Source of the DNA: a virus
DNA: 64,000 nt
Strand: one strand, 5' to 3'
IMG/VR virus record: IMGVR_UViG_3300036770_003386
Location: 57,852-121,851 of that record
Shown here: piece by piece, positions 6,896 through 41,532 of the stretch
Position numbering within the stretch: the stretch's first letter is position 1
How the letters are laid out: every line of letters begins with the position of its first letter
Made by a program: the position numbers and the translations under genes
Notes under the pieces: model-generated
Databases searched by the model: none
The model's input: only the letters and a program-made list of their open reading frames with translations
What the model was told of the DNA's origin: nothing

Positions 6896-9800
6896 TTATG
6901 TTTTTAAATCTTTTTTAAGAGCACCTGTTCTTCTTAGTCCATATCCTTTTCTTTGAACTGTTGGATGAGTTGTCAAACCAGAATTAATCTCATATCCACT
7001 TACACCTATAGAGACAGGATTAGAAGATCTAGTAAATCCACTAATTTTACCCCAAGAAAACTTTCCTACAGGATTTGACAATGTTCCAGTGGTTGCAATA
7101 CCAACAATATTTGTACTATTTGATATATTACAGGTTATAATTCCAGTAAGTGTATCAATTCCATGTATATAATAAATATTATCCAAGTAAGAAGTTGATA
7201 CTCCAATAATATCACTTTCATTTTGATCTATAGTTGTCAATCCAGTACCAACTTGAGTATCAAAAATATAAATTGGATATCCAACTGAAAGATCTGAATA
7301 AACCTCATCAGATTTAAACAGTTTAAATTCTATGGATAAATCTGTTCCAATACCATTAGTTGTCCCAATACCTGTAATTATTCCATCAAATCCTACAACA
7401 ACATTTGCATTTAAACATTCCTCAAACTCAATATCAGGGTATTCTATTATTACTTGAGGTGGATTTGTGTTTGTGTAACCAAATCCTGGGTTGACAATAG
7501 TTGCATTTGATATAGATCCAGATGAAATAGTTAATGATGCTGTAGCAGTTGTTCCAACACCAACTCCAACTCCATAATAAGGATTTGATATTTTTATGTC
7601 TATAGATCCCCCCGCATAACCAAAACCACTATTTACTATGGAAAGTGATTGTATTGTACCAGCTGCAGAAACAACCGCAGTTACAATACCAACTTCTATA
7701 GACTCATTAGATGGAATAATTAAAAGATTAATTTTTTCTGTGGGAAGTTCTTCTTCATAATCAAAGAAACTTGCATTGTCAACAAATACCTCATTATCTG
7801 ACGATGAAAAGTCTTTTATAATTTTTGCAGTTGGATATACTTGAGGTTCTAAAGAATCTCTAGATTTTGAGTATAAAATGTCATTAATTATAATATCTTC
7901 CTTTTGCTTTATCCAAAATATCGGTTTTTGATTTTCTTCATCCACTCCCTGTTCAGAATATAAATTAGTTTCCATTAAATCTGATGAAATAAAGTCAAAA
8001 ATAGTCCTTGTATTTTGAGTAACTGTATTTTGTAAATTAGAATTATTACTATAAATCTGTACAGTATCACCAATCTGAAGTAATTCATCGACTTCTACTC
8101 TCTGAGAGTCCACATCTCTAGTTCCTACGTAGAAATAAATTTCCACATTATCATCTACTTTGGGGGCTGTTAAAAATCTTACTGATGACCCACCAGTAAA
8201 TTCATATGCAGTTCCTGGTTCTTGAAGAATTCCATTTACAAAAATAACTAACAGTGAATCAAAATCTATAACCTGAGAATCTGGATCATCAATATTTGTT
8301 TGGAAACTTAAAAGTTCATCTTCATAATATAATGGATAGTTTAATCTTGACCCATTTTGGAAACGTCTTATAGAGTCAATTAAATTTAACTCTCCAAATT
8401 GCCATGCAGCAAAATCATCATTATAAGTTTCTAAAACTGCAAGTTTAAATTCTTCTATTGGCTCTGATAAATCTTTTGCTGTTACTAACCCAACTGGTCT
8501 AAAAATATCACCTCTTCTAAAATTGTAACCAGGTCTTGTAATTTTAAAGGATGAAACTTCAAATAATGTAGTACCAATACCAACATTATTAGGACTTGCA
8601 CCAACTTCAACATTCATTAGTAACCCAATTCCAGTTTCAGTTGTCTCACCAATTCCCAATCTTGATACGCCTATAATTGGTAAATTTTCATAACTTGGTG
8701 GTGACACTTGAATTATTGGATTGCTATATCCTGTGCCACCTGCCCCTACAGTAAACGATAAAGTTCCACCCGCCCCAACAGAAGCAGTTATAGTTGCAGG
8801 GTCTCCCATGTGTCCAGACTCAGTAACTCCGATGGAAATAGTACCTCTATATCCAGAACCAAAATTTAAATCTTCGTACCAAGGATATATCGTTCCATAA
8901 CCAATATAATAATGTGGTAAGGTGCTTGTGCCAACTTGAACTGAGAATGATGTTGTACCAATGCCAACAAGATTTAAAGAATAATTATGAGATGGAAAGT
9001 AAGAAACAATTCCTGGATTTGATGGGCAAGTAAATGCTAATCCGACAATTTTTACTTGATTAGCACCAATAAGACCATCTGTAGAAGGTGCAAAAACTCT
9101 TAGTATACCAGTTTCATTATTATATGAAACCGTAGTAAATGCAATTGAATTTCCTGTTGTTGCTATACCAATTATGTCAGTAATAGTACCATTTACATCC
9201 AAAGATGCTTTTACTTTTGCTCCAACCAATGGGGCATATCCAAGACCTGCAGTAGATCCTAAAGAAACAATAATTCCACCTCTTGGTAATTGGTTTTGGT
9301 TTACATCTGATTCGGAAATTGTAATTTCATCATTATCATTTCTTATTCCACTGAAAACAACACTAGTAATTCCAACTGAAGGATTTTCTACAATTTTAAA
9401 ATTATAATCTGTTATATTTTCAGTAAGTGGAGTCTGATAAATTCCATTTATGAATAATATGCCATTTCCAGATGTAGTACCTAAACCAACAGTATTAATT
9501 CCTTGAGACTTTAATATAAATGTTTCGCCTATACCTGTAAACTGTGAAGAGATATCATCAAAAATAACATTTGTAGAGTAATCTTGCCTTAAAAATACTC
9601 TTCCACTAAAACTTGCTCTAGATCTCTCTAAATTTCTTTCATCCTTTGTAACTAAGTCAAATATGTTTCCTCTAGGTGGTTGTGTGAAATATATTTCATC
9701 TTCGAATATGTTATAAGAACCTCTGTAAATTTTAACTTCTGAGTCATCCAGATGTGAAGTTGCCGAAGTTCCAACAAATCCTCTTTCAACTTCTACAATG

Positions 9801-12800
9801 TTCTTATCTCCAGTAAAGAATAATATTGGTCCGGAATTACTAGTTCCAATTCCAACATTTAAAACTCGCATATATTCATCACCTATTTTCAATAAATCAG
9901 TTGGTTTAATTGAACTTATTCCACTTAATGTAAAGAAAGTGGATCCAATGGAAATTTGCCCGTCATTACCCGACAAGGAATGTGCTATACCAGTATAAGT
10001 TAATGGATATTGTGCTAAGTTATTAATAGTAATCAGAGACTTTTCATTTTTTTTGTACATTTCAAATATGTGAGCATTACCTTCACCAAGATCAGTAAAT
10101 GTAACTCCTGTTCCAGAATTTGCATTTGATTCAGTTAATGCAATTTTAAATTCACTATTTGATAACTTAATAGCATAAACACTTGAAGGTAATCTATCTG
10201 TTGAAATTCCAGTATCAGTTATTGATCCAGATGGAATTCCCATGGCACTTTGACCAAGACCAATAAAAGTTGATTTTGGTTTATAAATTAAATTCTCCCC
10301 AGTACTGAAGAAATGATTATTTATTGTAAAAACACCAGTAACAGGATTTAAAACATTAGTGTCGAAAGGATCAAAAGATTTTGCAAATATTGGAGTATTT
10401 CTGTATCTTAATTTGAAGTTTAATCTATCAATGTTATTTGAATTCAATCCAAAATATTTTGCAATGTTTAAATCTTCATACAGTGGAGTTAATGAAAGTG
10501 GTTGAGGAATATTTATTTGATCTAAGAATTTATAAAAAACTTCATTATAATGCTGTACAGTTATAGATTCTCCATTAAATTCATTGTAAGGTGTAAATAT
10601 TACTTCAAATTTGTTTTGATCTACGAAAGAACTAAATGTTCCTATTCCAGAACTGTTACTAACTATTAAAATTGGATATTCTACAATAACGGAATTAAGA
10701 TCATCGTGAATAACCGCCAATTGGTGCAATGAACTAGTATTCCCAACACTAACTTTAACAAAAGATTTTACACTAGAGAAAAGTTCGGAATCATATGAGA
10801 AGATTGTAGAAGATGATGAAACAGTAGATGTCCCAGAGTCTAATATAACAGTTCTCTCACTAGTATCCGATTGTCTTGTTGATTTAAATCTATATGTATC
10901 TATTCCAGAAGAAGTATCATCAAAACAGATAGTTTTTGTCCTAACTGTGATATTATTTTCTGATTGATTTAAATAATTTAATTTTATTAATCCACCACTC
11001 ACTGACAGCCCAAATGATCCTATAAATCCGTAACTAAAATCATTCTCATCGTTTCCATCAAAATAATAATCACTATGATAAACATCATTCCCATCATAAG
11101 TTGCATAAATCTCAACATAATTCATTTCAAAAGTAGTTTTATTTAAAACATGAATTTGTGAATAAAATGAAGAATATAGTGAAGAATCTAATGATAAAAT
11201 ATCTTCAGACTCTTCTGGTAATATTACATTTACTGTGTTGAATATATTGGATGATCCTACAGTTAAAGAAGATTCCGATTCTAATGTAGTTAAAAATCTA
11301 CTTCCTAATATTTTTATTTCATAATCAATATTATATGGGTCTGTTGGTTCAAATAAGAAGTAGTAATTTTTAACATCGTCAACTACTGGAGTTATTTCTG
11401 CAATTTTTGTACCAAATACATTTGAATCTTCCCCAATAACATATAAATTACTTACTGTATTTTTTTCAAGGAAAAATACATCATCATTATTTTTAAGGGA
11501 AATAATTTCAGAAAATTGAACTTCATTTGTACCATCCTCCACTAAATTTTGATTAGCAGATCTTATTTGAATTAAAAATCTTCCATAAAGTTGATCTTTT
11601 GGGAGAGATAAAATAATTTGATTCAATCTTCGTTCATTATCATCAGAACTGGAAAATTCTCTACTTATATCGTCTATTTGTAAAACTCTATTAGTTCTTG
11701 CTTCTACATAATCAGTTAACTTTAAATTTTTAAATCTTATAATTCTAGATACGTCGGAAATCGTATCATAATCACGAACAAAATCTAAATTTTTAATTAC
11801 ATCAACCCTAGATTCGGATATAAAGGATTGTATTGAGTCTATTCTTGAACTTGGTACTAACCCTGTAGAAACTATTCCACTAGTAACTGATGAAATTTGT
11901 GTATCCGCAAAATTTTTGGTTCCAATTGGATGAACCATAGAGTTGACAACGGGAGAAATTTGATCCCAAGTTTTTTCACTCTTTATAGTATATGATAAAT
12001 TTTGGTAATAATCATTATCTGGTAAGTATTGAAAATCATTACTGAGTTTACCTATATCGTCTTCCCAATCTAAAGATTTAATATTTTCTGCTCCAACTAT
12101 AAAAGAACCGCTAACAACAGATAAATTTTCAACTGTAGCTAAATATCCACTAGAAAATCCTTTTATTACATCACCTACATGTAATTGATAATCACCAGAA
12201 AGTTTTAAATAATTTTTATTAGATTTTTCAACAATTAAATCGGTAATAATAATATCATCAGACTGTAAAACAATCGATATTTGTTCTCCTAATTCAAATA
12301 TACTATAGTCTTGTTCAACGCTAAAAATTGGGTAATTGGATTTTTTAACTATAGTAGCAAAAGTATTAATTTGGAATGTTACTGCAATTCCTGGATCACC
12401 ATACAACTCTGGTATTTGAATTACCATTCTTCCAGGGTTTGAATTTGAAGTGTAATCAATTACTTTGAAGAATTGATATCCATGATTTTCAGAATCAAAT
12501 CCAATACCACTATCTGGTATTATTTCAATGTTTTCAATAAATACTTCATCATTAATAGCAAACGGATCATTTGTAAATCCTAAAATAGGAGTTTTTATCA
12601 AACATGTTAATATTCCCGCTCTTGATGATTCAATTCTGTCTATTATAATACCATTAGAATTATCTACAGATTTTATAGTTACCGGAGTTGATGGTAACCC
12701 ATTGACTGGTACTTCAATAGTAACCAATTCTATATTTGCATTACCAAGTCCACCCCCAGACATTTTAGCTCTAAGGAGACCGTTATCTATTTTTTTTCCA

Positions 12801-15800
12801 CTATTAGAATCAACAACAACCAAATTTGGTGCTGATGGATACTTTTTACCACCATTTACAACATTTACTCTTACTAAAGTATTTGAGTTGATTATTTTTA
12901 CATTGTTTGATATATCTGCTTTTGGTGACAATGTTTTGTCATTGGAGTAATCAAATCCAGTATTTTTTAATGATATACTTCTAAGTTTACCAATACTCAA
13001 TGATGATGGAATTACATTTAATCCCCTATCAGAATTTGATGAAGATAGGGAGTAACTTGGGATATCTTTATAATTAATTCCCGGATTAATTATTTTAACT
13101 TTACTTATAGATCCAATTCCAGATGCGGAATTTGTAGTATATGATAATACTTCACAATCATTAGAACTATAAGAAGATTCCTCTGGTGTATCATTCAAGT
13201 TAATATCAAAAGTTGTATCAGTAACATTAAAAATATTATATCTTCCAGAATACTTACTATCAATAAAATTAATTTCTGAAGAATTTTTAATGGTATCCTT
13301 TAATGTTACAAGTTCAGTATTTTTTTCTAAAGTGTAATAAAGTTTTTCTGGATAATTGTCAGAATATTTTAAAGTTATAGTTGCATCACTACCAATACCT
13401 ATGCTATTTACACCCACCAAGGAAAATTCTCCAGTAGAAGCAAAAGATACAAATTCTTTTGATAGAGTTTTATTTGCATATAGTTTAAATGTATACCCTT
13501 CTAATGATGAATCAGATACATTAAAGACTAAATCATTATTTTTTATAACATTTATTTTTGGTTGAACTAAGTTCAATTCTTGAGTTCCAATTCCAACTGA
13601 TGTAAATTCAATAAAGTTTGGTGGTGCTGATATGGAATCTACATATGTTTGACATAGATTGACATTATTTGAATCAATTTTATGAACATAATAAGTTCCA
13701 GTGCTTAGACCTCCAATTACAGATGTTGAAATATAGTAAACTTTATCACCTGTAAATAGACCATGCTCAGATAAAGTTATTTTATTATTTTGCAAATTAA
13801 CTTCTGATGGTGTAAATGATAATAATTTTGTAGTGATTGATTTTATCTCATCATTATATTTCAAATTAATAAATGATGATCCACCAATACCAACACTTTT
13901 TCTTGGTTTGACATCAATATTAACTGTATCATTCAAAGATAAATTATGAGATGTTGAAACTGAAACTGTACTTTTTACATCAATAATATTACACAAAATT
14001 TCATCAAAGGTAGATTCAAATGAATATTTGTAATTATTAGAACCAACTATGCCAGTAAAATATAATCCATTGGTGGTGGTAGTTAATCCAACAGAAGTAA
14101 CTATTCCAATATAATCTTCAGATTTGTTTATTATATACAATTCACGCTCTGTTTCAGATCCAGACAAAATCTGGAAAGAAATGTTACCATCATTACTAAC
14201 CTGAATACCTTGTGTTCCAGATGGTCTTCTTAAAATAACTTTTTGATTTGTTTTAAATCCATGATTTGGTAGATATATTGATTGAGTTGGTATTGGTACT
14301 GTAACTAACTTTAATCCATTATAAAAAGTTTTATTAGTAAAGGTTCCCGACCAAGTACCAATCCCAATAGAATTATTTGGGTTAAAATATCTTAAATAAT
14401 TTTCTACTTGTGTTGGTATATTGTTTTCAACGCTAATTCTTAAAACATCTGACAAAAATGAAACTGTAGAGTTTGCTGTATTTAAACCAGAAGATATAGT
14501 TCTTTCAACTCTTAAAACATTAAGGTCATTAAAATAATTTAATATAGTAAAATATTGCTCATAATCTTCACCAATTATTTTAATAGAACTTCCAATAGAC
14601 ACACGTTTTGGAAAATCCTGTAGATATATGTCAGTGATTATTCCTACAGCACCAAATGGTATACTATTGGATAATTTAGTATTAAATTCTTCTACAAAAA
14701 CAGTATGTTGACCATTTAATTGATCAAAAGATGAAGTTAATCCAGTTATGTTTACAGTAGAATTATTAACTAAATTAAAATTTGGTAAATATTTTACATA
14801 AATTTCAGCATTTGAATTTTTATAAACTTTCGAATTTTCGTATATTCTAACTGTGGATTGTATGCTGTCTACCTCTTTACCTATTATTGATTCTACCGAA
14901 GACTCCAATCCATATCCAGAAGTTTTTTCATTGTCAAAATATAATATATCACCTACTTTATAGTTATTTTCACTATTACTCACTTCTAAAGATTCCACAC
15001 TTCCAGAAGTAGTTGATTCTACATCACATATTTGTCCAAATATATTTGGAATAAAATCATTTCTTCCAAATTTTTGTCCGGATTTATAGGGTAATGTATT
15101 TCTTAATAAGTTTGACTGATTAAAATCAAATTTTTGATTAAAGTCTGGATTGGTGTTTTCTGCTATAAATTTAGATCTATAATATTTTCCAATAAAATAT
15201 GGAAATACTCCTATGTAATTATTTTCTGGGTTTAATTTTGCAGTTGCAAAATAAGCATAAACACCATTTGGGTATTCGGGAGTTTTGCAAAATCTTCCAT
15301 TATATTCATCAAGATCTCCAGAATTTGTAAACTTGTAATCCTCGATAAAGTAACCAAGAGGAAAATCTGAAGTGCTTACTCTATTTTCAACCTCAAATAA
15401 AGAATAACCAGATTCTATTAATTTTATTTCTGAACTAAAATTTTCTGGATCAGAATAACCAAATGGACCATAAATTGGAATTCCATCATAAGACCATCCT
15501 ATAATTGGAGAGTGATTTGTGATAGACTCATTGAATAGAGATTTTAATAATTCTGAATATCCTGTCACTACATATTGAAGAGTATTTTCTTTTGTTTTAT
15601 GCAACAGTTCATAAGATTGATCTCTATATAATTCATACTGTATTCCATATTTGTAACAATTATCTAGTGTTAAAGATCTAATTTTTGGGAGGAATACTGC
15701 ATTTTTTCCAGTGGAAATAACTTTCAAAGTAGTATCATCGGGGTTATATCCATATCCCTGATTTAGCACTGTTACAGAATTTAATCTTCCATTTAGTATA

Positions 15801-18800
15801 TTTGCTCTTAAAAGAGCTCCAACACCACTCTTGCTTTCGATAATTATATCTGGTACGGAATAATAGTTATTTCCATAGTATGAAACTAAAACATCCACAA
15901 TTCTTCCTGCAGATATTACAGGAGTTAATTGTGCAAATTCACCATCCAATATTTTTACATCAGGAACATTTTCTAAATTTAATATAGTAGATCCATAATT
16001 AGATCCTTCTTCATAAAGATAAGTCTGAACTATAGAACCTTTTACAACTGGTGTTGCTACAATAGACCTGATTGATTGACCATCTGGTAAAGTGTATGAA
16101 ACATTTACTGTTATTTCTGGATAGTTAAAATATTGATATCCAGATCCTGTAGATTCAAATTTAATATAATTTTCTCTTAAGTAATTTTGATTATCTGTAC
16201 CACCAATACCAGCATTGCATACCCTAAAGGAATTGTTATCTACCTTTAAAACATAATACTGGTTTGATGTAGACAAACCTGATATTGGTGTTGTCTGAAA
16301 ATCATAAGTAACTAATTCTCCACTAGAAAATCCATGTGAAGTAAAGTTAATTGTATGATTATATGTTGATATACCACTTGGCTTTACAATTAATTTTCTA
16401 TTTATAAAACCTTCTCCACTATCTATAATTTTAAGTGAATCTAATACATTTTTTGGTTCAGTTTTAAATTTATGGATTCCAAAATTACCAACAGTAGTAA
16501 ATCCAACAGTGTTTATTCCAGATACATAATCACCATATGTTGGATAAATTTGTATAGTCTTGGAGTTAATTATTTTTGCGTAAAAAATAGAATTATTCCC
16601 CAAATATCTTCCAGTATCAGAATCTGATCCCTGAAATACTCCTAGTCCTATTTTTTCATTATTAATATTATTAATATCATAAATTACTTTTTGACCATCT
16701 ATAAAGTTGTGATCGGTTAAAAAAGTAATCGTTTCAGATGTTATACTTAAACCACCACCTTCTTCTAAAATTCTTGCATCAAAAAATACTTCTCTACTTT
16801 TTAACTTAGTTACTGGAGACAAAATTGCTCCTTTTCCATTTCCACCAGAAACTTTTATTGTTAATGGTCTATCAATATTGAATTCTTGTGAATCTATGTG
16901 TATTCTTTCAATCTTTCCTTGAACAACAGGTTGTAATTTTGCACTCCCATAAGAAAATTCTAATCTTGGAGGATTAATAACATCATAATCTTCACCAGGA
17001 TTTACTACCATAACAGATTCTAATGGGCCATAATAAATTTTATCATTAGATTTAGGACTAAGAATTTCTACACCATTTGCAAGAATTCCTACTGTTTCAG
17101 TACCAATTTCATCCTTACCGTCATAATAAATGTCAACATTAAGTTTGATTTTTTTTAATAATTTTTGTGGATGTATAGATTCATCTTCAGTTTTTTGTGA
17201 AGAGAGTGTGAAATTATGAGTTCCACTGGGTATGGACTCTAAATATACGAATTTATCTATTGATATAAAAGATCGAGAAAGATATAATTTAATTTGTTTT
17301 TTATCTGAAGATACTGTAATATAGTACAATCCTTCAGAAAGTCCTCCTATAGCAGAATCTGAATATGAATAATATACTCTATCTCCACTTAAAAAAGATA
17401 CTTCATTATTAAAACTTACTGAAGTATATTTTCCTTCTTCACTATCAAAATTAACCAAAGACGATGCATTATATGAAAACAAATCTTTAGTTATTTCATA
17501 TGAAGGTAATGAATTTGATGCGATGTAAACATTTTCATCATCTTCAGTGTATACATTAGTAACATCACAAGTAAGATTATTGTATTTTAATGGAACTATT
17601 GAACTTGTTGAAGTTTTTACTTTTCTTCTAATATCATAATCCTTTAGTGTATTCAGAGAACTTAAATTTGTATTGAATTCTAGTTCTCCTGTTTCTTTGT
17701 CTATTGAAGTTATTTCTACATTACTTAAAGAATCCTCTAATATTTCAGTATTTCTTTCCAAAAATTCTACATAGTCACCCACTTTAAGTGATGAATCATC
17801 AATTTCACTTAAAGTGAAAGCAGTTCTTGAATTTACATTAAAACTACTAAGTTCATATCTAGAACTAGTATTGTAGATAAAAGTATTTGCGATTATTTCT
17901 ACATCTGTCTTAGTTGATTGTGGATTTTCAATTAAATTTCCTAAATGTTTAATATAAATTTTATCCCCTTCTGTAAAGATATAATCAGAATTACTTTCAT
18001 TTCTTATTTGAAGATCATTAACAACGCCTAGAAGGCGAAGGTTGACTCTTTTAGTTTTATCACCATTTTCATATCCAAAATAAGTATCATTAGAATAAAC
18101 ATTAGATGTTTTTTCTATATTAGCATCAATATAGTTCTTATTTGCAGTATAGCATCCAAAAAATTGGTTAATACTTTTATCGGTATAAAAAATTTCAACC
18201 CCATTCTGGAATATACTTCCAGAATTTTCAAATCCAATTGTAGAATCTACTGTAAGGACATTTGCATTATCTGTGGAAGATATTTTTTCTATGACTTTAG
18301 TTGTTGGAGTTACTGTAAATTCTCCACTATTTTCAGAGTTAGAATCATCATAACCTAAAAATATATAAAACTTATAATAAGTCTTATTATTTCTTGTGAA
18401 AATTTCTGCTTCTGATACTGAACCAAATACATTTGAATTATTGTTTTTTGTTACTTGATATCCAGTTAATAATAAAGGATCTTTATCTGTAGATAGATTT
18501 TCAAATAATAATTCTTTTCTACGTCTATAATTCGATGCAGAAGTTTTAAATAAAAATGTTTCTAAATCAACGATCTTTGGATCTATTCCATATAATGCAT
18601 TAAATAGAATTCTGAAAGATTCTTTACTTCCTTTTGCTTGATAGAAAGACTTCGAATTCTTTATAAAATTGTTTACATTTAACTGATCATACAAACTTAC
18701 TTTTTCTAATCCTGGGAGAAAAGTAAATTTAATTTTCTCATAGAATTTTTGTAGAAACAACACACTCAAATTTACAACCTTTGAGTTATTTGAGTGTGTT

Positions 18801-19228
18801 GCTGAATTAGTAGTACTAAAAACTAATTCAGTGTTATAAGATTCAATTCCACTAAATCCTCTTACACATCCAGTAAATCTATCAGATAATCTTTCTTTGT
18901 AAGTAATAATTTCATCATCAATCTGAAGTAATCCATAAGAATTTGGAAAACCTAATGTGTTGTTAACATAAATTACTTCATCTCCGATAGCAACATCTTG
19001 AGTCAGTAAAGTATTACCCGCAACTACTTCAGGAGTTAAATTATCTAATTTAAGATATTCTACTAAATTTTGAACAACATCTACACTTCCTCCTTGGTGC
19101 TCTTGAGAAATGTAGTACTGTTTTAAAAATTCAGAAAATTTTGGGTTTTCTTCTAATATAAATTCTGGTATTTGATTATCAATAATTTCTTGAATTCTTA
19201 CCTTTGATTCAAAATTTGATTGTCCCAT
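6896..19228 (-). CDS. Giant YHYH-motif baseplate/virion protein (4110 aa) in the gp7 position
   Basis: One uninterrupted 12.3-kb frame, ATG at 19228. The N-terminus is helical (VRIQEIIDNQIPEFILEENP, QYYISQEHQGG) and the remainder beta-rich. Near residues 1238-1258 is GWSYDGIPIYGPFGY, the signature of YHYH-domain proteins known in cyanophages. Two modules recur. One is about 45 residues (HGF/LxTGDxVxYxx...GGLSxGxYYVxxID), seen near residues 600-650, 930-980, 1812-1862 and 2965-3000. The other is a G-x-G/N-Y unit (NPGEDY, SGEGF, NQGYGY, GGTGY, NSGFGY). VGIGTT strings are abundant in the C-terminal half. T4 order 25-6-7-8 puts it at gene 7 (1032 residues in T4), but I see no clear gp7 sequence match, so gp7 equivalence rests on position only. 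Structural role: confident. Confidence 0.85.
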   Translation of the reverse strand: MGQSNFESKVRIQEIIDNQIPEFILEENPKFSEFLKQYYISQEHQGGSVDVVQNLVEYLKLDNLTPEVVAGNTLLTQDVAIGDEVIYVNNTLGFPNSYGLLQIDDEIITYKERLSDRFTGCVRGFSGIESYNTELVFSTTNSATHSNNSKVVNLSVLFLQKFYEKIKFTFLPGLEKVSLYDQLNVNNFIKNSKSFYQAKGSKESFRILFNALYGIDPKIVDLETFLFKTSASNYRRRKELLFENLSTDKDPLLLTGYQVTKNNNSNVFGSVSEAEIFTRNNKTYYKFYIFLGYDDSNSENSGEFTVTPTTKVIEKISSTDNANVLTVDSTIGFENSGSIFQNGVEIFYTDKSINQFFGCYTANKNYIDANIEKTSNVYSNDTYFGYENGDKTKRVNLRLLGVVNDLQIRNESNSDYIFTEGDKIYIKHLGNLIENPQSTKTDVEIIANTFIYNTSSRYELSSFNVNSRTAFTLSEIDDSSLKVGDYVEFLERNTEILEDSLSNVEITSIDKETGELEFNTNLSSLNTLKDYDIRRKVKTSTSSIVPLKYNNLTCDVTNVYTEDDENVYIASNSLPSYEITKDLFSYNASSLVNFDSEEGKYTSVSFNNEVSFLSGDRVYYSYSDSAIGGLSEGLYYITVSSDKKQIKLYLSRSFISIDKFVYLESIPSGTHNFTLSSQKTEDESIHPQKLLKKIKLNVDIYYDGKDEIGTETVGILANGVEILSPKSNDKIYYGPLESVMVVNPGEDYDVINPPRLEFSYGSAKLQPVVQGKIERIHIDSQEFNIDRPLTIKVSGGNGKGAILSPVTKLKSREVFFDARILEEGGGLSITSETITFLTDHNFIDGQKVIYDINNINNEKIGLGVFQGSDSDTGRYLGNNSIFYAKIINSKTIQIYPTYGDYVSGINTVGFTTVGNFGIHKFKTEPKNVLDSLKIIDSGEGFINRKLIVKPSGISTYNHTINFTSHGFSSGELVTYDFQTTPISGLSTSNQYYVLKVDNNSFRVCNAGIGGTDNQNYLRENYIKFESTGSGYQYFNYPEITVNVSYTLPDGQSIRSIVATPVVKGSIVQTYLYEEGSNYGSTILNLENVPDVKILDGEFAQLTPVISAGRIVDVLVSYYGNNYYSVPDIIIESKSGVGALLRANILNGRLNSVTVLNQGYGYNPDDTTLKVISTGKNAVFLPKIRSLTLDNCYKYGIQYELYRDQSYELLHKTKENTLQYVVTGYSELLKSLFNESITNHSPIIGWSYDGIPIYGPFGYSDPENFSSEIKLIESGYSLFEVENRVSTSDFPLGYFIEDYKFTNSGDLDEYNGRFCKTPEYPNGVYAYFATAKLNPENNYIGVFPYFIGKYYRSKFIAENTNPDFNQKFDFNQSNLLRNTLPYKSGQKFGRNDFIPNIFGQICDVESTTSGSVESLEVSNSENNYKVGDILYFDNEKTSGYGLESSVESIIGKEVDSIQSTVRIYENSKVYKNSNAEIYVKYLPNFNLVNNSTVNITGLTSSFDQLNGQHTVFVEEFNTKLSNSIPFGAVGIITDIYLQDFPKRVSIGSSIKIIGEDYEQYFTILNYFNDLNVLRVERTISSGLNTANSTVSFLSDVLRISVENNIPTQVENYLRYFNPNNSIGIGTWSGTFTNKTFYNGLKLVTVPIPTQSIYLPNHGFKTNQKVILRRPSGTQGIQVSNDGNISFQILSGSETERELYIINKSEDYIGIVTSVGLTTTTNGLYFTGIVGSNNYKYSFESTFDEILCNIIDVKSTVSVSTSHNLSLNDTVNIDVKPRKSVGIGGSSFINLKYNDEIKSITTKLLSFTPSEVNLQNNKITLSEHGLFTGDKVYYISTSVIGGLSTGTYYVHKIDSNNVNLCQTYVDSISAPPNFIEFTSVGIGTQELNLVQPKINVIKNNDLVFNVSDSSLEGYTFKLYANKTLSKEFVSFASTGEFSLVGVNSIGIGSDATITLKYSDNYPEKLYYTLEKNTELVTLKDTIKNSSEINFIDSKYSGRYNIFNVTDTTFDINLNDTPEESSYSSNDCEVLSYTTNSASGIGSISKVKIINPGINYKDIPSYSLSSSNSDRGLNVIPSSLSIGKLRSISLKNTGFDYSNDKTLSPKADISNNVKIINSNTLVRVNVVNGGKKYPSAPNLVVVDSNSGKKIDNGLLRAKMSGGGLGNANIELVTIEVPVNGLPSTPVTIKSVDNSNGIIIDRIESSRAGILTCLIKTPILGFTNDPFAINDEVFIENIEIIPDSGIGFDSENHGYQFFKVIDYTSNSNPGRMVIQIPELYGDPGIAVTFQINTFATIVKKSNYPIFSVEQDYSIFELGEQISIVLQSDDIIITDLIVEKSNKNYLKLSGDYQLHVGDVIKGFSSGYLATVENLSVVSGSFIVGAENIKSLDWEDDIGKLSNDFQYLPDNDYYQNLSYTIKSEKTWDQISPVVNSMVHPIGTKNFADTQISSVTSGIVSTGLVPSSRIDSIQSFISESRVDVIKNLDFVRDYDTISDVSRIIRFKNLKLTDYVEARTNRVLQIDDISREFSSSDDNERRLNQIILSLPKDQLYGRFLIQIRSANQNLVEDGTNEVQFSEIISLKNNDDVFFLEKNTVSNLYVIGEDSNVFGTKIAEITPVVDDVKNYYFLFEPTDPYNIDYEIKILGSRFLTTLESESSLTVGSSNIFNTVNVILPEESEDILSLDSSLYSSFYSQIHVLNKTTFEMNYVEIYATYDGNDVYHSDYYFDGNDENDFSYGFIGSFGLSVSGGLIKLNYLNQSENNITVRTKTICFDDTSSGIDTYRFKSTRQSDTSERTVILDSGTSTVSSSSTIFSYDSELFSSVKSFVKVSVGNTSSLHQLAVIHDDLNSVIVEYPILIVSNSSGIGTFSSFVDQNKFEVIFTPYNEFNGESITVQHYNEVFYKFLDQINIPQPLSLTPLYEDLNIAKYFGLNSNNIDRLNFKLRYRNTPIFAKSFDPFDTNVLNPVTGVFTINNHFFSTGENLIYKPKSTFIGLGQSAMGIPSGSITDTGISTDRLPSSVYAIKLSNSEFKIALTESNANSGTGVTFTDLGEGNAHIFEMYKKNEKSLITINNLAQYPLTYTGIAHSLSGNDGQISIGSTFFTLSGISSIKPTDLLKIGDEYMRVLNVGIGTSNSGPILFFTGDKNIVEVERGFVGTSATSHLDDSEVKIYRGSYNIFEDEIYFTQPPRGNIFDLVTKDERNLERSRASFSGRVFLRQDYSTNVIFDDISSQFTGIGETFILKSQGINTVGLGTTSGNGILFINGIYQTPLTENITDYNFKIVENPSVGITSVVFSGIRNDNDEITISESDVNQNQLPRGGIIVSLGSTAGLGYAPLVGAKVKASLDVNGTITDIIGIATTGNSIAFTTVSYNNETGILRVFAPSTDGLIGANQVKIVGLAFTCPSNPGIVSYFPSHNYSLNLVGIGTTSFSVQVGTSTLPHYYIGYGTIYPWYEDLNFGSGYRGTISIGVTESGHMGDPATITASVGAGGTLSFTVGAGGTGYSNPIIQVSPPSYENLPIIGVSRLGIGETTETGIGLLMNVEVGASPNNVGIGTTLFEVSSFKITRPGYNFRRGDIFRPVGLVTAKDLSEPIEEFKLAVLETYNDDFAAWQFGELNLIDSIRRFQNGSRLNYPLYYEDELLSFQTNIDDPDSQVIDFDSLLVIFVNGILQEPGTAYEFTGGSSVRFLTAPKVDDNVEIYFYVGTRDVDSQRVEVDELLQIGDTVQIYSNNSNLQNTVTQNTRTIFDFISSDLMETNLYSEQGVDEENQKPIFWIKQKEDIIINDILYSKSRDSLEPQVYPTAKIIKDFSSSDNEVFVDNASFFDYEEELPTEKINLLIIPSNESIEVGIVTAVVSAAGTIQSLSIVNSGFGYAGGSIDIKISNPYYGVGVGVGTTATASLTISSGSISNATIVNPGFGYTNTNPPQVIIEYPDIEFEECLNANVVVGFDGIITGIGTTNGIGTDLSIEFKLFKSDEVYSDLSVGYPIYIFDTQVGTGLTTIDQNESDIIGVSTSYLDNIYYIHGIDTLTGIITCNISNSTNIVGIATTGTLSNPVGKFSWGKISGFTRSSNPVSIGVSGYEINSGLTTHPTVQRKGYGLRRTGALKKDLKT

Positions 19229-32450: not shown

Positions 32451-32524
32451 TGCAGGTTGTCAGGATCGAACTGACCTCTGCCGATTTATGAGATCGGTCC
32501 CTTCAACCAGATGGGTAAACCTGC
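32451..32524 (-). tRNA. tRNA with CAU anticodon (Met or Ile2)
   Basis: 74 bases. Perfect 7-bp acceptor GCAGGTT/AACCTGC, D-arm CCC...GGG with GG in the loop, anticodon stem CCGAT/ATCGG with loop CTCATAA, T-arm GTCAG-TTCGATC-CTGAC. Elongator Met versus lysidine-modified Ile cannot be decided from the anticodon alone; the first pair G-C argues against initiator Met. CCA is not encoded. Its 5' 22 bases overlap the end of the HNH gene. Confidence 0.9.
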
Positions 32525-32934
32525 TCGCTTAAGAACTCTTCCCAACTGCCCCCATAGTGTAGCATATGATGGCAGTTATGGCAAAGGAGATCGCATTTAT
32601 CAACTTCCTCCTTGATAAGTTCCCATCGTCGATTTGCGAAACTTCTCCCATCAAGTTTTAGTTCTTTTTGAGATGGATCTCGATGATGAAAACATAAAGT
32701 TGCTGGTCTATCTTCACCGCATGTTTGACACTTACCACCTTTGTATTGAAGTGCTTTCCATTTGTTGGAATATGCTCTTCCTTTTTGTTCGGTATAAGTG
32801 TTCCTGTCCTTGATTACGGGATCGTTTTTATACCTCCATTTGGCACGACAACTTTCATTACAATAAAGTTTTGCTCTGCCACCCTTTCTTTCGTGTTGGG
32901 GAACCTCTAATCCACAAGATTTGCAGACAATCAT
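32503..32934 (-). CDS. HNH endonuclease with N-terminal zinc finger
   Basis: 143 residues. N-terminal CKSCG...CNESCRAKW finger, then CQTCGEDRPATLCFHHRDPSQ, and EVDKCDLLCHNCHHMLHYGG: HNH core with H-H-(R)-D-P and the CxxC pairs that hold the structural zinc. Such free-standing HNH genes are commonly mobile and often sit beside tRNA genes; here the stop codon lies inside tRNA-CAU. Starts 28 bases after the 155-residue gene and probably shares cassette 8. Confidence 0.85.
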   Translation of the reverse strand: MIVCKSCGLEVPQHERKGGRAKLYCNESCRAKWRYKNDPVIKDRNTYTEQKGRAYSNKWKALQYKGGKCQTCGEDRPATLCFHHRDPSQKELKLDGRSFANRRWELIKEEVDKCDLLCHNCHHMLHYGGSWEEFLSEQVYPSG

Positions 32935-34361: not shown

Positions 34362-34713
34362 CATATAAGAATATATAGGTCTTATGATAAAAAATGTCAT
34401 ATAACGCTAACATTGTATAAGATTTTGCAAGTCTTATGTGGGTCTTATGCGGGGTGTGCCAGTTTTTTGAGTGTCCTGGGGCTTGACAAACTGCGCGTCT
34501 TATGGTATGCGGGCAAAGGTCACAAGACTCAGACACATTTATAAGGATTCTCAACAATTACTCTAAATGATTCTCAATAAACATTTTTATTAAGAATGTT
34601 ACAAAAAGAACAATATGATTTAATCGAAGAATAACGGAAAATAATCAAATTGCATTGTGTATTATAAAATAACAAGTGTGTTCTCTAAATAAACAATAGT
34701 GTTTTATTGTAAA
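34362..34713. other. Spacer around the divergent GIY-YIG gene
   Basis: No gene. Contains four GTCTTATG repeats (34382-34505), a partial cassette box (GGACACTCAAAAAACTGGCAC, about 34457-34477), a plus-strand promoter, an inverted repeat (34570-34597) and a small hairpin ACAATA/TATTGT directly before the endonuclease ATG that could mask its start. Confidence 0.55.
34483..34511 (+). promoter_or_regulatory. Plus-strand promoter facing the GIY-YIG gene
   Basis: TTGACA (34483-34488), 17 bases, TATGCG (34506-34511). The only promoter-like sequence on the strand of the only plus-strand gene. Confidence 0.5.
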
Positions 34714-35454
34714 ATGGCACAAGGAATCATCTACCTAATCATCAATAAACAAACTGGGCACAAATACGTTGGTCAAACAACAAACGCAATGAATAAAATA
34801 TGGCAAGAGCATATCTCAGAAGCATTGAGAATGTCATCTTCTCCATTACATCGTGCTATGCGTAAGTATGGTAATCACAACTTCATGATTAAAGAACTTG
34901 ATGAATGTGATGATAGTTTATTAAATCAAAAAGAAGAATACTGGATTAAACAATATAATACCTCTAAAAGTGAAGAAGGATATAATATTATAAGTGATGA
35001 TGATAAAGTAGAAGTAAAAATAGAAATACCAGTACCAATACCTGAAAAAAAGATAGAAAGAACAGAACCCTGGGGATTTCAACTAAAAGAAAATAGAGGC
35101 AATGGTAAACACAGTTCAAAAAGAGTAATGGGAATCAATGTAGAAACTGGTGAACAAAAAATATGGGAAAGTATAACTGCGGCTGCATTAGAAGTTAATG
35201 GAAAATCTGGTAACATACATGGAGCAATTAAACATGGATGGAAAGCATATGGTTACAGATGGAAGAAATTAGACAATACACCAAATAAAACTCCTATAAG
35301 AGGAGTTCATAAAAGAACATGGGAAGAAATAAGATTTGAAAGTATTAATGCAGCAGGTAGATATTTTGGATCTAGCAATATGAGCGGCATACAAAATAGT
35401 TTACGTAATCCTCACAAATACACCTACAAGCAATATTACTGGTTTTATAATTAA
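34714..35454 (+). CDS. GIY-YIG homing-type endonuclease
   Basis: The only plus-strand gene. MAQGIIYLIINKQTGHKYVG gives the GIY...YVG catalytic start, with QEEYWIKQYNT further on (the Glu that binds metal). C-terminal half has two NUMOD1-like DNA-binding repeats: GINVETGEQKIWESITAAALEV, and GVHKRTWEEIRFESINAAGRYF with GYRWKKL/YYWFYN ends. Start at 34714 is preferred over 34699. It ends 4 bases from the convergent GNAT gene. A typical free-standing homing endonuclease, likely laterally acquired given its opposite orientation and AT-rich flanks. Confidence 0.9.
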   Translation: MAQGIIYLIINKQTGHKYVGQTTNAMNKIWQEHISEALRMSSSPLHRAMRKYGNHNFMIKELDECDDSLLNQKEEYWIKQYNTSKSEEGYNIISDDDKVEVKIEIPVPIPEKKIERTEPWGFQLKENRGNGKHSSKRVMGINVETGEQKIWESITAAALEVNGKSGNIHGAIKHGWKAYGYRWKKLDNTPNKTPIRGVHKRTWEEIRFESINAAGRYFGSSNMSGIQNSLRNPHKYTYKQYYWFYN

Positions 35455-35972
35455 ACAGTATAACGACCCAGTTCCCGATTGAAGAATCTTCTTAACTTTT
35501 TGAGTCTTGAATCATGAATCTTTTCTTTTGTGGTACGATAAATATCATCCTCATATCTGGACGATTCAACATCCTGCATTGCCTTGGATTCCATCTGAGG
35601 ATAACGAATATAAGTGTCTCTGGTGGTAAAGTCACGATTTCTTCCCTTATTGGGTTGGAATCCATGAGACTGATAGAACTTCTGAAGTTTTGCCTTCTTT
35701 CCTTTCTCTGGTGCCAGAGTTAATGTAATTCTTTTCTTTTGTTTGTCCGCATACTTTGAGAGTCCTTTCATAATGCGAGATCCAATACCACTGTTTCTTT
35801 CTTCAGGTGGAATCCAAATATTGTTCAGACGAATATCACCAGATCGATCATGAGAAGCATCAACATTCACACCATGATGCTTTTTACCATAGGCACGGGA
35901 AATCTTATTCAGAACTTCTTGTGGTGGTTTTGCATCTTTTGCCTCTTGTACAAACTGAGAGAATGTTTTCAT
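35451..35972 (-). CDS. GNAT acetyltransferase with capsid-targeting-like N-terminus
   Basis: 173 residues. The first 11, MKTFSQFVQEA, closely match the T4 internal-protein capsid-targeting sequence (MKTYQEFIAEA), which the gp21 protease cuts after a (I/L)xE site. A GNAT core follows: RLNNIWIPPEE, acetyl-CoA loop RNSGIGSRIMKG (59-70), RITLTLAPEKG and LQKFYQSHGF (96-105). So this looks like an enzyme packed in the head and injected. Known: T4 does this with Alt and internal proteins. Inferred: same route here. Third gene of a late operon. Confidence 0.8.
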   Translation of the reverse strand: MKTFSQFVQEAKDAKPPQEVLNKISRAYGKKHHGVNVDASHDRSGDIRLNNIWIPPEERNSGIGSRIMKGLSKYADKQKKRITLTLAPEKGKKAKLQKFYQSHGFQPNKGRNRDFTTRDTYIRYPQMESKAMQDVESSRYEDDIYRTTKEKIHDSRLKKLRRFFNRELGRYTV

Positions 35973-36655
35973 GAATTTGTAAATTCGTATTCGGTATCTG
36001 ATGGTAGTGGAGTTAATCTTCCCTTACCTTTTCTTTTTTGTTTTGTATTTAATTGTCGTCCGACTTGAGCAAATTGTTTTCTAGTTTTAGGATTCATCTC
36101 ACCAAATCCTGCTCTTTGATATAATTTAGATCTTGTATTTTTCTTTGTCTCACCCTTTTGATCATCATACTTATTATTTTCAGTTGGACGATTGGTGACA
36201 ACTGATCCATGTGGAAGACGATGTTCTACATCTTGTTTCCATACATCTTTTGCCGCACGAACTAATTCATTTCTTCTTTCTGGATCTTTTTCCAGTTCTG
36301 ATGGTTTATCACTATGATTCCAAGTGACATTGAAAACTCTCTTTCCATCTTTTGTTCTTCCATGATGAGTCACATTATAATAAATTCCCGATTCTTTATC
36401 ACCCACTGACATCCATCCTGGGCCACCAGTAACATCACTCTGTGCAGAAGAATGACGATTTAATTCTGGATTGTCTGCTCCGTGTCGAACATATCTTTTT
36501 GTTCTCATTTGTTGCAGTGCTCTCTTTGTTTTTGATGAATATGGTCTTTCATCACGATCTTCTGCCTTCTGTTCTGGGGTTTTTCCTGATGGTAATTTAT
36601 CATCAGGAGCATAATACTTTTCTGCAATTGTAATGAATTCTGAGAATGTTCTCAT
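35969..36655 (-). CDS. Basic protein with capsid-targeting-like N-terminus, 228 aa
   Basis: Begins MRTFSEFITIAEKYYAPD, the same F-x-x-F motif as its neighbours. Body is polar and Lys/Arg-rich; GGPGWMSVGDKESGIYYNVT and VFNVTWNHSD look like a small folded domain, and LPHGSVVTNRP...RSKLYQRAGFG resembles the end of a GNAT-type fold (Y-x-x-x-G-F), but the acetyl-CoA loop is not evident. Stop and start overlap with the genes on both sides (ATGA). Candidate injected protein. Confidence 0.7.
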   Translation of the reverse strand: MRTFSEFITIAEKYYAPDDKLPSGKTPEQKAEDRDERPYSSKTKRALQQMRTKRYVRHGADNPELNRHSSAQSDVTGGPGWMSVGDKESGIYYNVTHHGRTKDGKRVFNVTWNHSDKPSELEKDPERRNELVRAAKDVWKQDVEHRLPHGSVVTNRPTENNKYDDQKGETKKNTRSKLYQRAGFGEMNPKTRKQFAQVGRQLNTKQKRKGKGRLTPLPSDTEYEFTNS

Positions 36656-37965
36656 TGCCTTTTCTTTGGTTGTGTTTTTGATCTTTTTGTTTTACCTTTT
36701 GCTCTAAATGTTGTTGATGGATTGCGATCAATAGACTTATTCGCAGTCTCTTTATCAATCATAATATAAGATCCTTCTGGTTGTCCTTCTCTTGGTGTGA
36801 ATCCACCATGTGCATTTGGCACTCTGACAACTTTTGCACCTTGTTTAAATGCTGACTTTGCCTGATCGGAAGCACTGGTTGGTTTTCCTTTCTTATCGGC
36901 AATATCATCATCAGATGCAGATGACATCCACGACTTAATCTTCTTACCAAAATCTCTTGGTGAATCAGTGCTTGTGACTTTGGGATTGACAAGTCTCAAA
37001 TTGACTCTTGAATGTGAATAATCAGATCCAACTCTGGATGATGGTGTCGTATAAACAATATCCTTTCTTTCATCTGGATGATAAGATCCTGTTGAAGGAG
37101 AATCTCTGAATCCAGATCTCATAATCTCACTCTTATTTGATGCTGTCGTATAATGTGCAGTGCGAAGAACTCTCATTCTTCTTGCTTCATTGATGAATTC
37201 TTCAAATGTTTTTGTACTTCTTTCAAAATCTCTAATATTGTTGGATGCAGATCTTAAAGTTTTTTTTCCTTGAAGTTCTTTAAGTTTTTTTTGATTTTGA
37301 GATTTTGATGCATATTTACCAGACAATCTTGAACTTTCATCTCTATAAGATTCTCTTTTTTTCGCTCCTCTTTTTTCACGATGAACTAATCTTCTTGTCT
37401 CAGTGTGCTTATCAATGTCACTACCTGGTTCAAATCCAGTTTGCCTTTTATGCCTTACAAATTCTTTTTCGATTGGTGACAGTTTTTGATAATTATCAAC
37501 CTTTGCCTCACTCACATAACCACCACCCATTGCTTTACGAATTGCATCAACTGCTTGAGTACGAAGTTGTCTTCTTTTTTCTCCCTTACGAACTAATCCT
37601 TGTTTTTGTGCTTCGATATTTGTGCGTTCTCCTCTTTTCTTCGCTTTTTGCAGTTTTTCATATTTACCTTCTGGTTTATCACCAGAGAATTCTGCCCATC
37701 TACGATCTTCTGGTGATGATCCTGCTTGTGGTTTCTTTTTTCCTCTTTCTCCACGATGGGCGCTCTTTCTCTGGCGATCTAATGAATCGGCATAAGGTCT
37801 TGTACCTGGTCTTGCCCAAGTAATGGTTTCTCTTTCAAAATCCTGATGAGTATCTCCACCACTAAAGCGCCCTCTTCTGGAGGACGCTTTTCTCATTGCA
37901 GTAGTTTTTATACTTTCTCCTTTTTTTTCTAAGTATTGATCTTGTTTATTACCTTCGTTGATCAT
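36652..37965 (-). CDS. Basic protein with internal cleavage-like motifs and C-terminal ADP-ribosyltransferase-like domain
   Basis: 437 residues. Residues 1-150 are Lys/Arg/Ser-rich and probably disordered; VSE-A at 151-154; then a second basic stretch; TKTFEEFINE-A at 251-261 is the same targeting/cleavage motif found at the N-terminus of the two following genes. Residues 267-320 (LRTAHYTTASNKSEIMRSGF, DIVYTTPSSRVGSDYSHS) resemble ADP-ribosyltransferase folds (H-Y-T for H-G-T, Y305 and a later Y). The final glutamate would be in GSYIMIDKETAN. In T4 the packaged ADP-ribosyltransferase is Alt. First gene after the late promoter at 37987. ART call is tentative. Confidence 0.65.
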   Translation of the reverse strand: MINEGNKQDQYLEKKGESIKTTAMRKASSRRGRFSGGDTHQDFERETITWARPGTRPYADSLDRQRKSAHRGERGKKKPQAGSSPEDRRWAEFSGDKPEGKYEKLQKAKKRGERTNIEAQKQGLVRKGEKRRQLRTQAVDAIRKAMGGGYVSEAKVDNYQKLSPIEKEFVRHKRQTGFEPGSDIDKHTETRRLVHREKRGAKKRESYRDESSRLSGKYASKSQNQKKLKELQGKKTLRSASNNIRDFERSTKTFEEFINEARRMRVLRTAHYTTASNKSEIMRSGFRDSPSTGSYHPDERKDIVYTTPSSRVGSDYSHSRVNLRLVNPKVTSTDSPRDFGKKIKSWMSSASDDDIADKKGKPTSASDQAKSAFKQGAKVVRVPNAHGGFTPREGQPEGSYIMIDKETANKSIDRNPSTTFRAKGKTKRSKTQPKKRQ

Positions 37966-37986
37966 TTGTAGAAATACTTTTGTGAG

Positions 37987-37994
37987 TATTTATA
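37987..37994 (-). promoter_or_regulatory. Late promoter of the capsid-cargo operon
   Basis: Exact TATAAATA on the minus strand 22 bases before the ATG at 37965. Late expression fits genes whose products are packaged into heads. Confidence 0.75.
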
Positions 37995-38235: not shown

Positions 38236-38712
38236 TTAGTAAATATAAGATTTCCATTCAGTCACATTGGACTTATGAAGTTTCAGTGTGATTTTATTTT
38301 CCATTGGTTTTGGAATTCTTCGCAGTTTCATACCAGTTTGTTCCAATATTGTATTTCCTTTTTTGGTGTTACAGGTAGAACATGCAACAACCATGTTTTC
38401 CCAGGTATCTTGTCCACCACGGGATCTTGGTACAATATGATCAATTGTTAGTTTTTTCTGTGACCCACAATACTGACATGTATGATCATCCCGTTGATAG
38501 ATCAGTGCTCGGGTGGGTTTTTGAATCATAATGCGGCTCAGTGGAATTTTAACATACTCAATGAGTCGTATGACTCTTGAAGAAAGAACTTGTGCCTTTT
38601 CCTTCAAAAGTAATACGACTGCACGTTTCCAATTTGTAAAATTAATTGGTTCATAACTTGCATTGAGTACAAGAACCGTATGATGGGGATGTAATTGTAA
38701 GTATTCCATCAT
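38236..38712 (-). CDS. HNH endonuclease, cyanobacterial type
   Basis: 158 residues. VLNASYEPINFTNWKRAVVL at the start and RDDHTCQYCGSQKKLTIDHI, VPRSRGGQDTWENMVVACST, CNTKKGN: full HNH motif (DH, N, and CxxC pairs). The N-terminal phrase is typical of cyanobacterial chromosomal HNH proteins and their phage relatives. T4-like cyanophages often keep this gene; possible roles are packaging nicking or mobility. The start may be either of two adjacent ATGs. Confidence 0.88.
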   Translation of the reverse strand: MMEYLQLHPHHTVLVLNASYEPINFTNWKRAVVLLLKEKAQVLSSRVIRLIEYVKIPLSRIMIQKPTRALIYQRDDHTCQYCGSQKKLTIDHIVPRSRGGQDTWENMVVACSTCNTKKGNTILEQTGMKLRRIPKPMENKITLKLHKSNVTEWKSYIY

Positions 38713-40897: not shown

Positions 40898-41052
40898 AAT
40901 CAATTAGAGTTGATGAGTTGAGTGTAAGAAATCAGTACAGGAGAGAGAATGAACCACAGAAGCGACGAACCCACTGGAGAGTATCATAATGGGAGCGAGG
41001 ATTGCTCAAGGAGGGCAGAGTCACGGGGTCAATTCCCTTGATTACCTTGTAA
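40898..41052 (-). promoter_or_regulatory. Spacer with two possible promoters
   Basis: No gene. Minus strand TGTATAAT (about 41051-41058) at the end of the metalloprotease gene and TTGAGC-17-TGATAC (about 40984-41012) before the 52-residue gene. Confidence 0.4.
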
Positions 41053-41532
41053 TTATACAGCCCTCATCAGGCGATTGGGGAACCACTGTGCCACTTGTTG
41101 ATCCGTCCACCCGCTCTTCTCAAACAGGTACTCCAGATATAGTGTCTCTTCTTGCTCCCGTGCCTCTATTTCGTGTGGTTGATACCAATATTCGTAATTT
41201 TCGACAGGTTCTTTACCATAACACATTTTTCCACGACGCATCCGCAGTGAACCATATACCCACTGCCTTAGATGTGTAAGTTCATGTAAAAGAGTTTTTA
41301 TATAAGTTTCTTCATCCATATAAGTATCCAACTCAATCAAAAACTCACGAGGACGATAAGATTCTCCCACATAGTCACAATAACCTACTACATTCTCACG
41401 CTTCAGACCACGATGAAGAATCTCCACCTCAATCTTATGGCGTGGAAGAAAACGATTTAAAAACCAAGAGGTAACATCCTCACAGAGGCGCTTGCGAAAA
41501 CCATATCCAGAAGTGTAAATGATACTTTGCAT
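41053..41532 (-). CDS. SprT-like zinc metalloprotease
   Basis: 159 residues from the ATG at 41532. LLHELTHLRQWVYGSL holds the HExxH zinc motif, and QPHEIEAREQE supplies the likely third ligand, as in SprT/WSS1-type peptidases. ILHRGLKRENVVGYCDYVGE and FLIELDTYMDEETYIKTLLH complete the fold. Likely cleaves protein, but substrate is unknown; phage roles suggested for such proteins include removing DNA-bound host proteins (inference). Confidence 0.85.
   Translation of the reverse strand: MQSIIYTSGYGFRKRLCEDVTSWFLNRFLPRHKIEVEILHRGLKRENVVGYCDYVGESYRPREFLIELDTYMDEETYIKTLLHELTHLRQWVYGSLRMRRGKMCYGKEPVENYEYWYQPHEIEAREQEETLYLEYLFEKSGWTDQQVAQWFPNRLMRAV

Follow-up and report, generated by a model that had tools for sequence, protein, structure and literature searches.

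The DNA stretch analysed here (the window, 64,000 nucleotides) corresponds to bases 57852-121851 of the linear virus contig IMGVR_UViG_3300036770_003386, which is 121,851 bases long. As the major capsid protein gp23 encoded by the contig shares ~80% identity with its counterpart in Prochlorococcus phage P-SSM2, the contig is a fragment of a T4-like cyanophage. The window includes a cassette of three minus-strand genes, encoding in order proteins of 437, 228 and 173 residues, and each neighbouring pair overlaps by 4 nucleotides (ATGA). All three products carry a short motif resembling the capsid targeting sequence of T4 internal proteins. The features of the cassette, in window coordinates, are as follows.

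37987-37994, minus strand: TATAAATA, a T4-type late-promoter-like motif, exact match, 22 nucleotides upstream of the start of the 437-residue open reading frame (ORF)
36652-37965, minus strand: ORF for the 437-residue fused protein, a basic MINEG module followed by an ADP-ribosyltransferase (ART)-like module
37183-37215, minus strand: internal capsid-targeting-like motif TKTFEEFINEA, residue 251 of 437, aligning with the N-termini of homologous separate genes
36655-37182, minus strand: ART-like domain
35969-36655, minus strand: ORF for the 228-residue protein, of unknown family, possibly with a degenerate GNAT-like fold
36620-36655, minus strand: N-terminal motif MRTFSEFITIAE, candidate cleavage after IAE (residues 10-12)
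35451-35972, minus strand: GNAT acetyltransferase, 173 residues
35940-35972, minus strand: N-terminal motif MKTFSQFVQEA, candidate cleavage after VQE
35454-35591, minus strand: C-terminal tail of the GNAT protein (residues 128-173), defined by alignment and clustering of protein bodies

A preliminary description of the locus had reported three coupled genes behind an exact late promoter, one of them encoding an acetyltransferase, and the motifs themselves. The overlaps and the exact TATAAATA bear this out, and MKTFSQFVQEA, MRTFSEFITIAE and TKTFEEFINEA were found to begin at 35972, 36655 and 37215, respectively. The GNAT assignment is certain by profile, with PF13508 matched above the cut-off at residues 47-107 (4.6e-8) and PF13673 and PF00583 also above theirs. 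The contig contains 14 exact copies of TATAAATA, 12 of them on the minus strand, and 10 of the 14 lie 21-36 nucleotides upstream of an ORF start, chiefly in the structural region, where several of the downstream genes are named by position alone. The promoter motif also precedes two apparent GIY-YIG genes.

Ten residues suffice as a capsid targeting sequence in T4, where positions 4 and 7 weigh most for targeting and positions 8 and 10 for processing (PMC9026906). Aromatic residues are present at positions 4 and 7 of the ~10-residue N-terminal tag in the GNAT and 228-residue proteins, as well as in the internal copy of the 437-residue fusion, and VQE and INE, with V or I at residue 8 and E at residue 10, fit an (I/L)xE-type site. 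All 33 homologues of the ART-like module have F or Y at position 4, F at 7, I or L at 8 and E at 10. Ten GNAT homologues, the most distant at 37% identity, have invariant F7 and E10 and either F or Y at position 4. In the 21 aligned members of the 228-residue family, F7 and E12 are invariant, by which IAE at residues 10-12 is the candidate processing site. As judged by these alignments, the residues conserved in the tags are those at positions that govern targeting and processing in the T4 sequence.

To gauge how frequent the motif is, 144 homologue-bearing loci totalling 1.26 Mb were examined, some of which overlap or repeat a contig. The pattern M[KR][TSN][FY]xx[FY][ILVM] at ATG starts begins 265 ORFs in these loci versus 0.1 expected from shuffles of residues 2-12 at the same starts, and it is matched by 104 of 2,464 when distinct 12-mers alone are counted. 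The matching N-termini are attached to 18 body families that are unrelated by BLAST beyond the first 13 residues. One homologue search had the motif among its patterns, the enlarged GNAT and 228-residue searches did not, and most of the 18 families entered the set merely as neighbours of homologues. A DNA pattern of the motif gave 43 matches in 14 phage records versus one for the reversed pattern. The motifs are real and occur far beyond chance. A role as a DNA or RNA element was rejected, as the codons vary, and conservation is seen at the level of the protein, including in distant phages and in genes at other sites of this genome. Run on T4, the pattern recovers ipII, ipIII, one internal codon of nrdC.11 and the uncharacterised gene 61.1. 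The latter (AF158101, 18966-19130; L163:567-731) encodes 54 residues of unknown function starting MKTFKEFIKED, and from its sequence the product looks like another capsid-targeted internal protein of T4.

The preliminary description had the motif of the 437-residue protein within the chain, which is correct, though the protein is better described as a fusion of two modules that are separate genes in the related loci L005, L014 and L016. The ART-like region is a stand-alone gene starting MKTF..FI.EA in L005, L013, L014, L016 and others. At the fusion its start codon is ACA instead of ATG and the frames are joined. The motif is therefore internal because the upstream gene has become fused to the ART-like gene. 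In L010, the ART-like protein is joined to the 228-residue body instead. Relatives have comparable junctions, in which xKTFxxF(I/M)xEA lies inside the protein. Distinct internal matches number 18, of which one or more are spurious, and with duplicates included there are 37 matches versus 7 in one shuffle. In the internal copies the residues for targeting and cleavage are retained, often with another x-E just before the copy (VSE/, FRE/, VKE/). Such copies may be relics of gene shuffling or, less probably, functional sites at which the fusions are cut internally.

In the ART-like module, counted from the motif, His21 and Tyr55 are invariant in the 33 homologues and an acidic residue at 154/156 is nearly so. 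The model of the module (pLDDT 84) has NatT, a diphtheria-toxin homologue and PARPs as its best folds, and the top PDB folds are ARTs, with weak E values of at least 0.013. A distant homologue matches the PARP and ART-PolyVal profiles below the cut-off. Together, alignment and model support an ART assignment for the C-terminal part with moderate confidence. Head-packaged ARTs are an established theme among myoviruses (PMC9503650).

Several tblastn matches of the GNAT protein in other phages fall inside DarB-like/PLxRFG proteins, i.e. polyvalent proteins, in which one GNAT family typically adjoins an ART (PMC5512222). The C-terminal tail of the window GNAT is missing from most homologues and resembles the end of another motif protein (L011:8684-8971). 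The 228-residue protein has no convincing match among Pfam and PHROG profiles. Its model (pLDDT 77) gives weak matches to acetyltransferase folds, from which it may possibly have a degenerate GNAT-like fold, and its viral fold matches are mostly uncharacterised proteins. For both the 437- and the 228-residue proteins, sequence searches of the PDB and tblastn against phage records returned no matches.

A search for the motif in other genes of this genome, which the preliminary description had proposed, identified three further motif genes in the contig, which also encodes a candidate processing enzyme (contig coordinates).

38135: 78-residue motif protein, MKTFKQFINEA, directly downstream of the gp23 gene
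49868: 102-residue motif protein, MKSFQQFLSES
10716: NMNAT-like cytidylyltransferase (PF01467), 428 residues, MKLFSTFITEA
40986-41435: gp21-type prohead protease (PF03420, E 1.4e-37)

The gp23 of the contig has a candidate cleavage site EFLHE/S ending at residue 54, and T4 gp23 is cut at FLTE/A. Ranked by charge per residue, the 437-, 228-, 173- and 78-residue motif proteins are 5th to 14th of 130 for positive charge, with the 437-residue protein (net charge about +47) at rank 5. Three PHROG profiles for internal head or internal virion proteins (phrog_2667, 8111 and 8765) match homologue N-termini at residues 1 to ~25, from profile position 1, with weak E values of about 0.003-0.09. In relatives, the tagged cargo includes an S-adenosylmethionine (SAM) lyase and a P-loop kinase. 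A tagged P-loop kinase of the AAA_33 type is encoded at L115:2773-3399, and a tagged possible SprT-like peptidase (weak match) at L069:4212-4586. In the contig NMNAT, the tag is followed by a second module of ~45 residues, LGLxxDGHGxWxDxxTGxxxAKT (L002:10530-10653, minus strand). This module is also found in two proteins of cyanophage S-CREM2, the virion-detected kinase gp14 (twice) and the Cas9-like gp12 (L025), and might be another packaging or ejection element.

Evidence on virions is available from related cyanophages. Table 3 of the S-CREM2 report lists the SAM hydrolase gp6, the kinase gp14 and the NMNAT-like cytidylyltransferase gp154 among proteins detected in virions by mass spectrometry (PMC10665884). 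Their N-termini are MKDFDSFLEE (gp6, which matches Pfam S-AdoMet lyase), VKRFDAFLTEE (gp14) and MKNFSSFLTEA (gp154), and gp13 and gp136 have similar starts. A position matrix trained solely on the window phage and its relatives, without the S-CREM2 proteins, places gp154, gp14 and gp6 at the top of 4,438 candidate starts. The MKTF-trained matrix underscored other cyanophage tags that lack T3, and for this reason a second, looser pattern was set at the T4-critical positions. Of the 219 ORFs of S-CREM2, 52 encode virion proteins, and these include all three annotated starts that match strictly (p = 0.013) and all five that match the looser pattern (p = 6.5e-4), the strict value being the fairer as the looser pattern was set after the S-CREM2 N-termini had been seen. 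The virion-detected gp12 (L025:7704-10313, minus strand), annotated as a Cas9-like nuclease and without a family in a Pfam search, has a tag-like LRFASFMAEA at residues 17-26. It was not counted as tagged, as this segment is off the annotated start and residue 17 is a CTG codon. In S-SZBM1, the virion-detected cytidylyltransferase (NMNAT) starts MRFRQFIIEA. S-SRM01 also encodes a tagged NMNAT. Cytidylyltransferases are also listed for S-SCSM1 and S-SM1 (T4-GC190) virions in the portions of those reports covered, where the comparison concerns presence of the enzyme alone, and other GC190 members start VKSFGQFLTEA and MKKFSAFLNEA. By this indirect evidence, relatives of the window phage have proteins with the motif in their particles. 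The text covered of the published virion reports contains no mention of the motif, and a literature search, with subscription papers outside its scope, returned no report of such a tag in cyanophages.

The three genes are most probably late genes of a T4-like cyanophage, the products of which are targeted to the head by a capsid targeting sequence like that of T4 internal proteins. A segment of 10-12 residues at the start, aromatic at 4 and 7, with I/L/V/M at 8 and Glu at 10 or 12, would attach to the scaffolding core, and a gp21-type prohead protease would then cut after (I/L/V)xE. Once freed, the protein would remain with the packaged DNA and accompany it into the next host, the cargo being the GNAT, the ART-like protein and the third member of the cassette. 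Cleavage, injection, host modification and action ahead of phage gene expression would then apply to the tagged proteins of the window phage itself. Capsid targeting had been put forward in the preliminary description, and it is supported by the chance test, the unrelated bodies, the T4-critical positions, the gp21-type protease and the late-promoter context. Further support comes from the basic charge, the weak internal-head-protein profile matches and the published virion mass spectrometry of other cyanomyoviruses. The motif is best read as a T4-type head-import tag that, to judge from sequence, cyanomyoviruses would use on many unrelated proteins. Several observations weigh on the other side. 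The virion data all come from relatives, and in S-SZBM1 two of the three motif genes are without virion detection. The window members themselves fall short of the PHROG profiles, the motif of the 437-residue protein is internal and not N-terminal, and the 102-residue motif protein is not basic. In addition, the NMNATs of P-HM1 and HTVC008M have no motif, and the looser pattern was chosen with the S-CREM2 data in view.

The strongest of the alternatives, itself unlikely, is that the tagged proteins enter the prohead as core or DNA-condensing assembly proteins and not as host effectors. Several of them are small and strongly basic, and the 78-residue member adjoins the capsid genes. However, the cargo has enzyme domains (GNAT, NMNAT, SAM lyase) without an obvious role in assembly, and it varies strongly between phages, as arms-race proteins would. 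Adjacent cassette genes have clearly been shuffled and fused, which would also suit a motif that is just a start region spread by recombination in a duplicating gene cassette, with no sorting role and with proteins that act in the infected cell. This is very improbable, given that distant phages and other parts of this genome also have the motif, conserved as protein but not in its codons, and that virion-detected enzymes carry it. The least probable explanation is that the published detections are contamination by abundant infected-cell proteins and the virion link spurious, a concern raised by the S-CREM2 and S-SCSM1 authors themselves, but NMNAT-like enzymes recur in four virion studies and contamination would leave the motif common to gp6, gp14 and gp154 unexplained.

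An extension of the head-targeting explanation can be offered tentatively. A head-import code common to cyanomyoviruses would load a large, swappable set of injected effectors, of which the fused members would be true polyproteins, split into individual effectors by the prohead protease inside the head.

The system resembles T4 IPI, IPII and IPIII in its ~10-residue N-terminal tag with critical positions 4, 7, 8 and 10, its unrelated basic bodies and its gp21-type protease, and the well-placed promoter motif would fit late expression. Unlike those of T4, the cyanophage tags mark many enzymes (GNAT, ART-like, NMNAT, SAM lyase, kinase), occur within shuffled cassettes and are in some cases buried in fusions. 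T4 Alt, which is injected, is an ADP-ribosyltransferase with a head-targeting tag, and in this respect the ART-like protein of the window resembles it. However, the Alt active site is R-S-E (PMC5512222), whereas the window protein has the invariant His and Tyr of the H-Y type, and no homology to Alt was found for it. Polyvalent proteins (DarB-like, PLxRFG) share with the cassette a homologous GNAT domain and the proximity of ART and GNAT, but each is one giant polypeptide, whereas here separate small genes are each tagged, with two-module fusions at most. As ART and GNAT are often side by side in the polyvalent injected proteins of other phages, the cassette looks, by analogy, like a polyvalent effector broken up into swappable genes, each with a tag of its own. 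Several S-CREM2 and S-SZBM1 virion enzymes have the same N-terminal motif, and the window contig encodes an NMNAT member. The bodies of the S-CREM2, S-SZBM1, S-SCSM1 and S-SM1 virion enzymes are, however, unrelated to the three proteins of the window.

Cyanophage virions repeatedly yield enzymes (NMNAT, SAM hydrolase, kinases) whose loading lacks an explanation, and contamination is suspected in two papers. If the tag functions as proposed, ten residues would explain the loading and would allow the injected proteins of many cyanophages to be predicted from sequence. The viral DNA would probably bring the tagged enzymes with it into the next host cell. For viruses whose hosts are major photosynthesisers, this would name candidate first-strike proteins acting in acetylation, ADP-ribosylation and the metabolism of NAD and SAM.

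The cassette is flanked by genes for homing-type endonucleases (GIY-YIG, HNH), which may partly account for its shuffling.

34699-35454, plus strand: homing-type endonuclease
38236-38712, minus strand: homing-type endonuclease
32503-32934, minus strand: homing-type endonuclease

When the DNA of the locus was compared with phage records for distant similarity, matches were limited to the adjacent HNH gene and 58 bases of a small upstream gene. Elsewhere in the window, at 6896-19228 on the minus strand, an ORF of 4,110 residues is followed by ORFs of 633 and 136 residues in the order of gp7, gp6 and gp25 in phage B23, and these were named by position alone.

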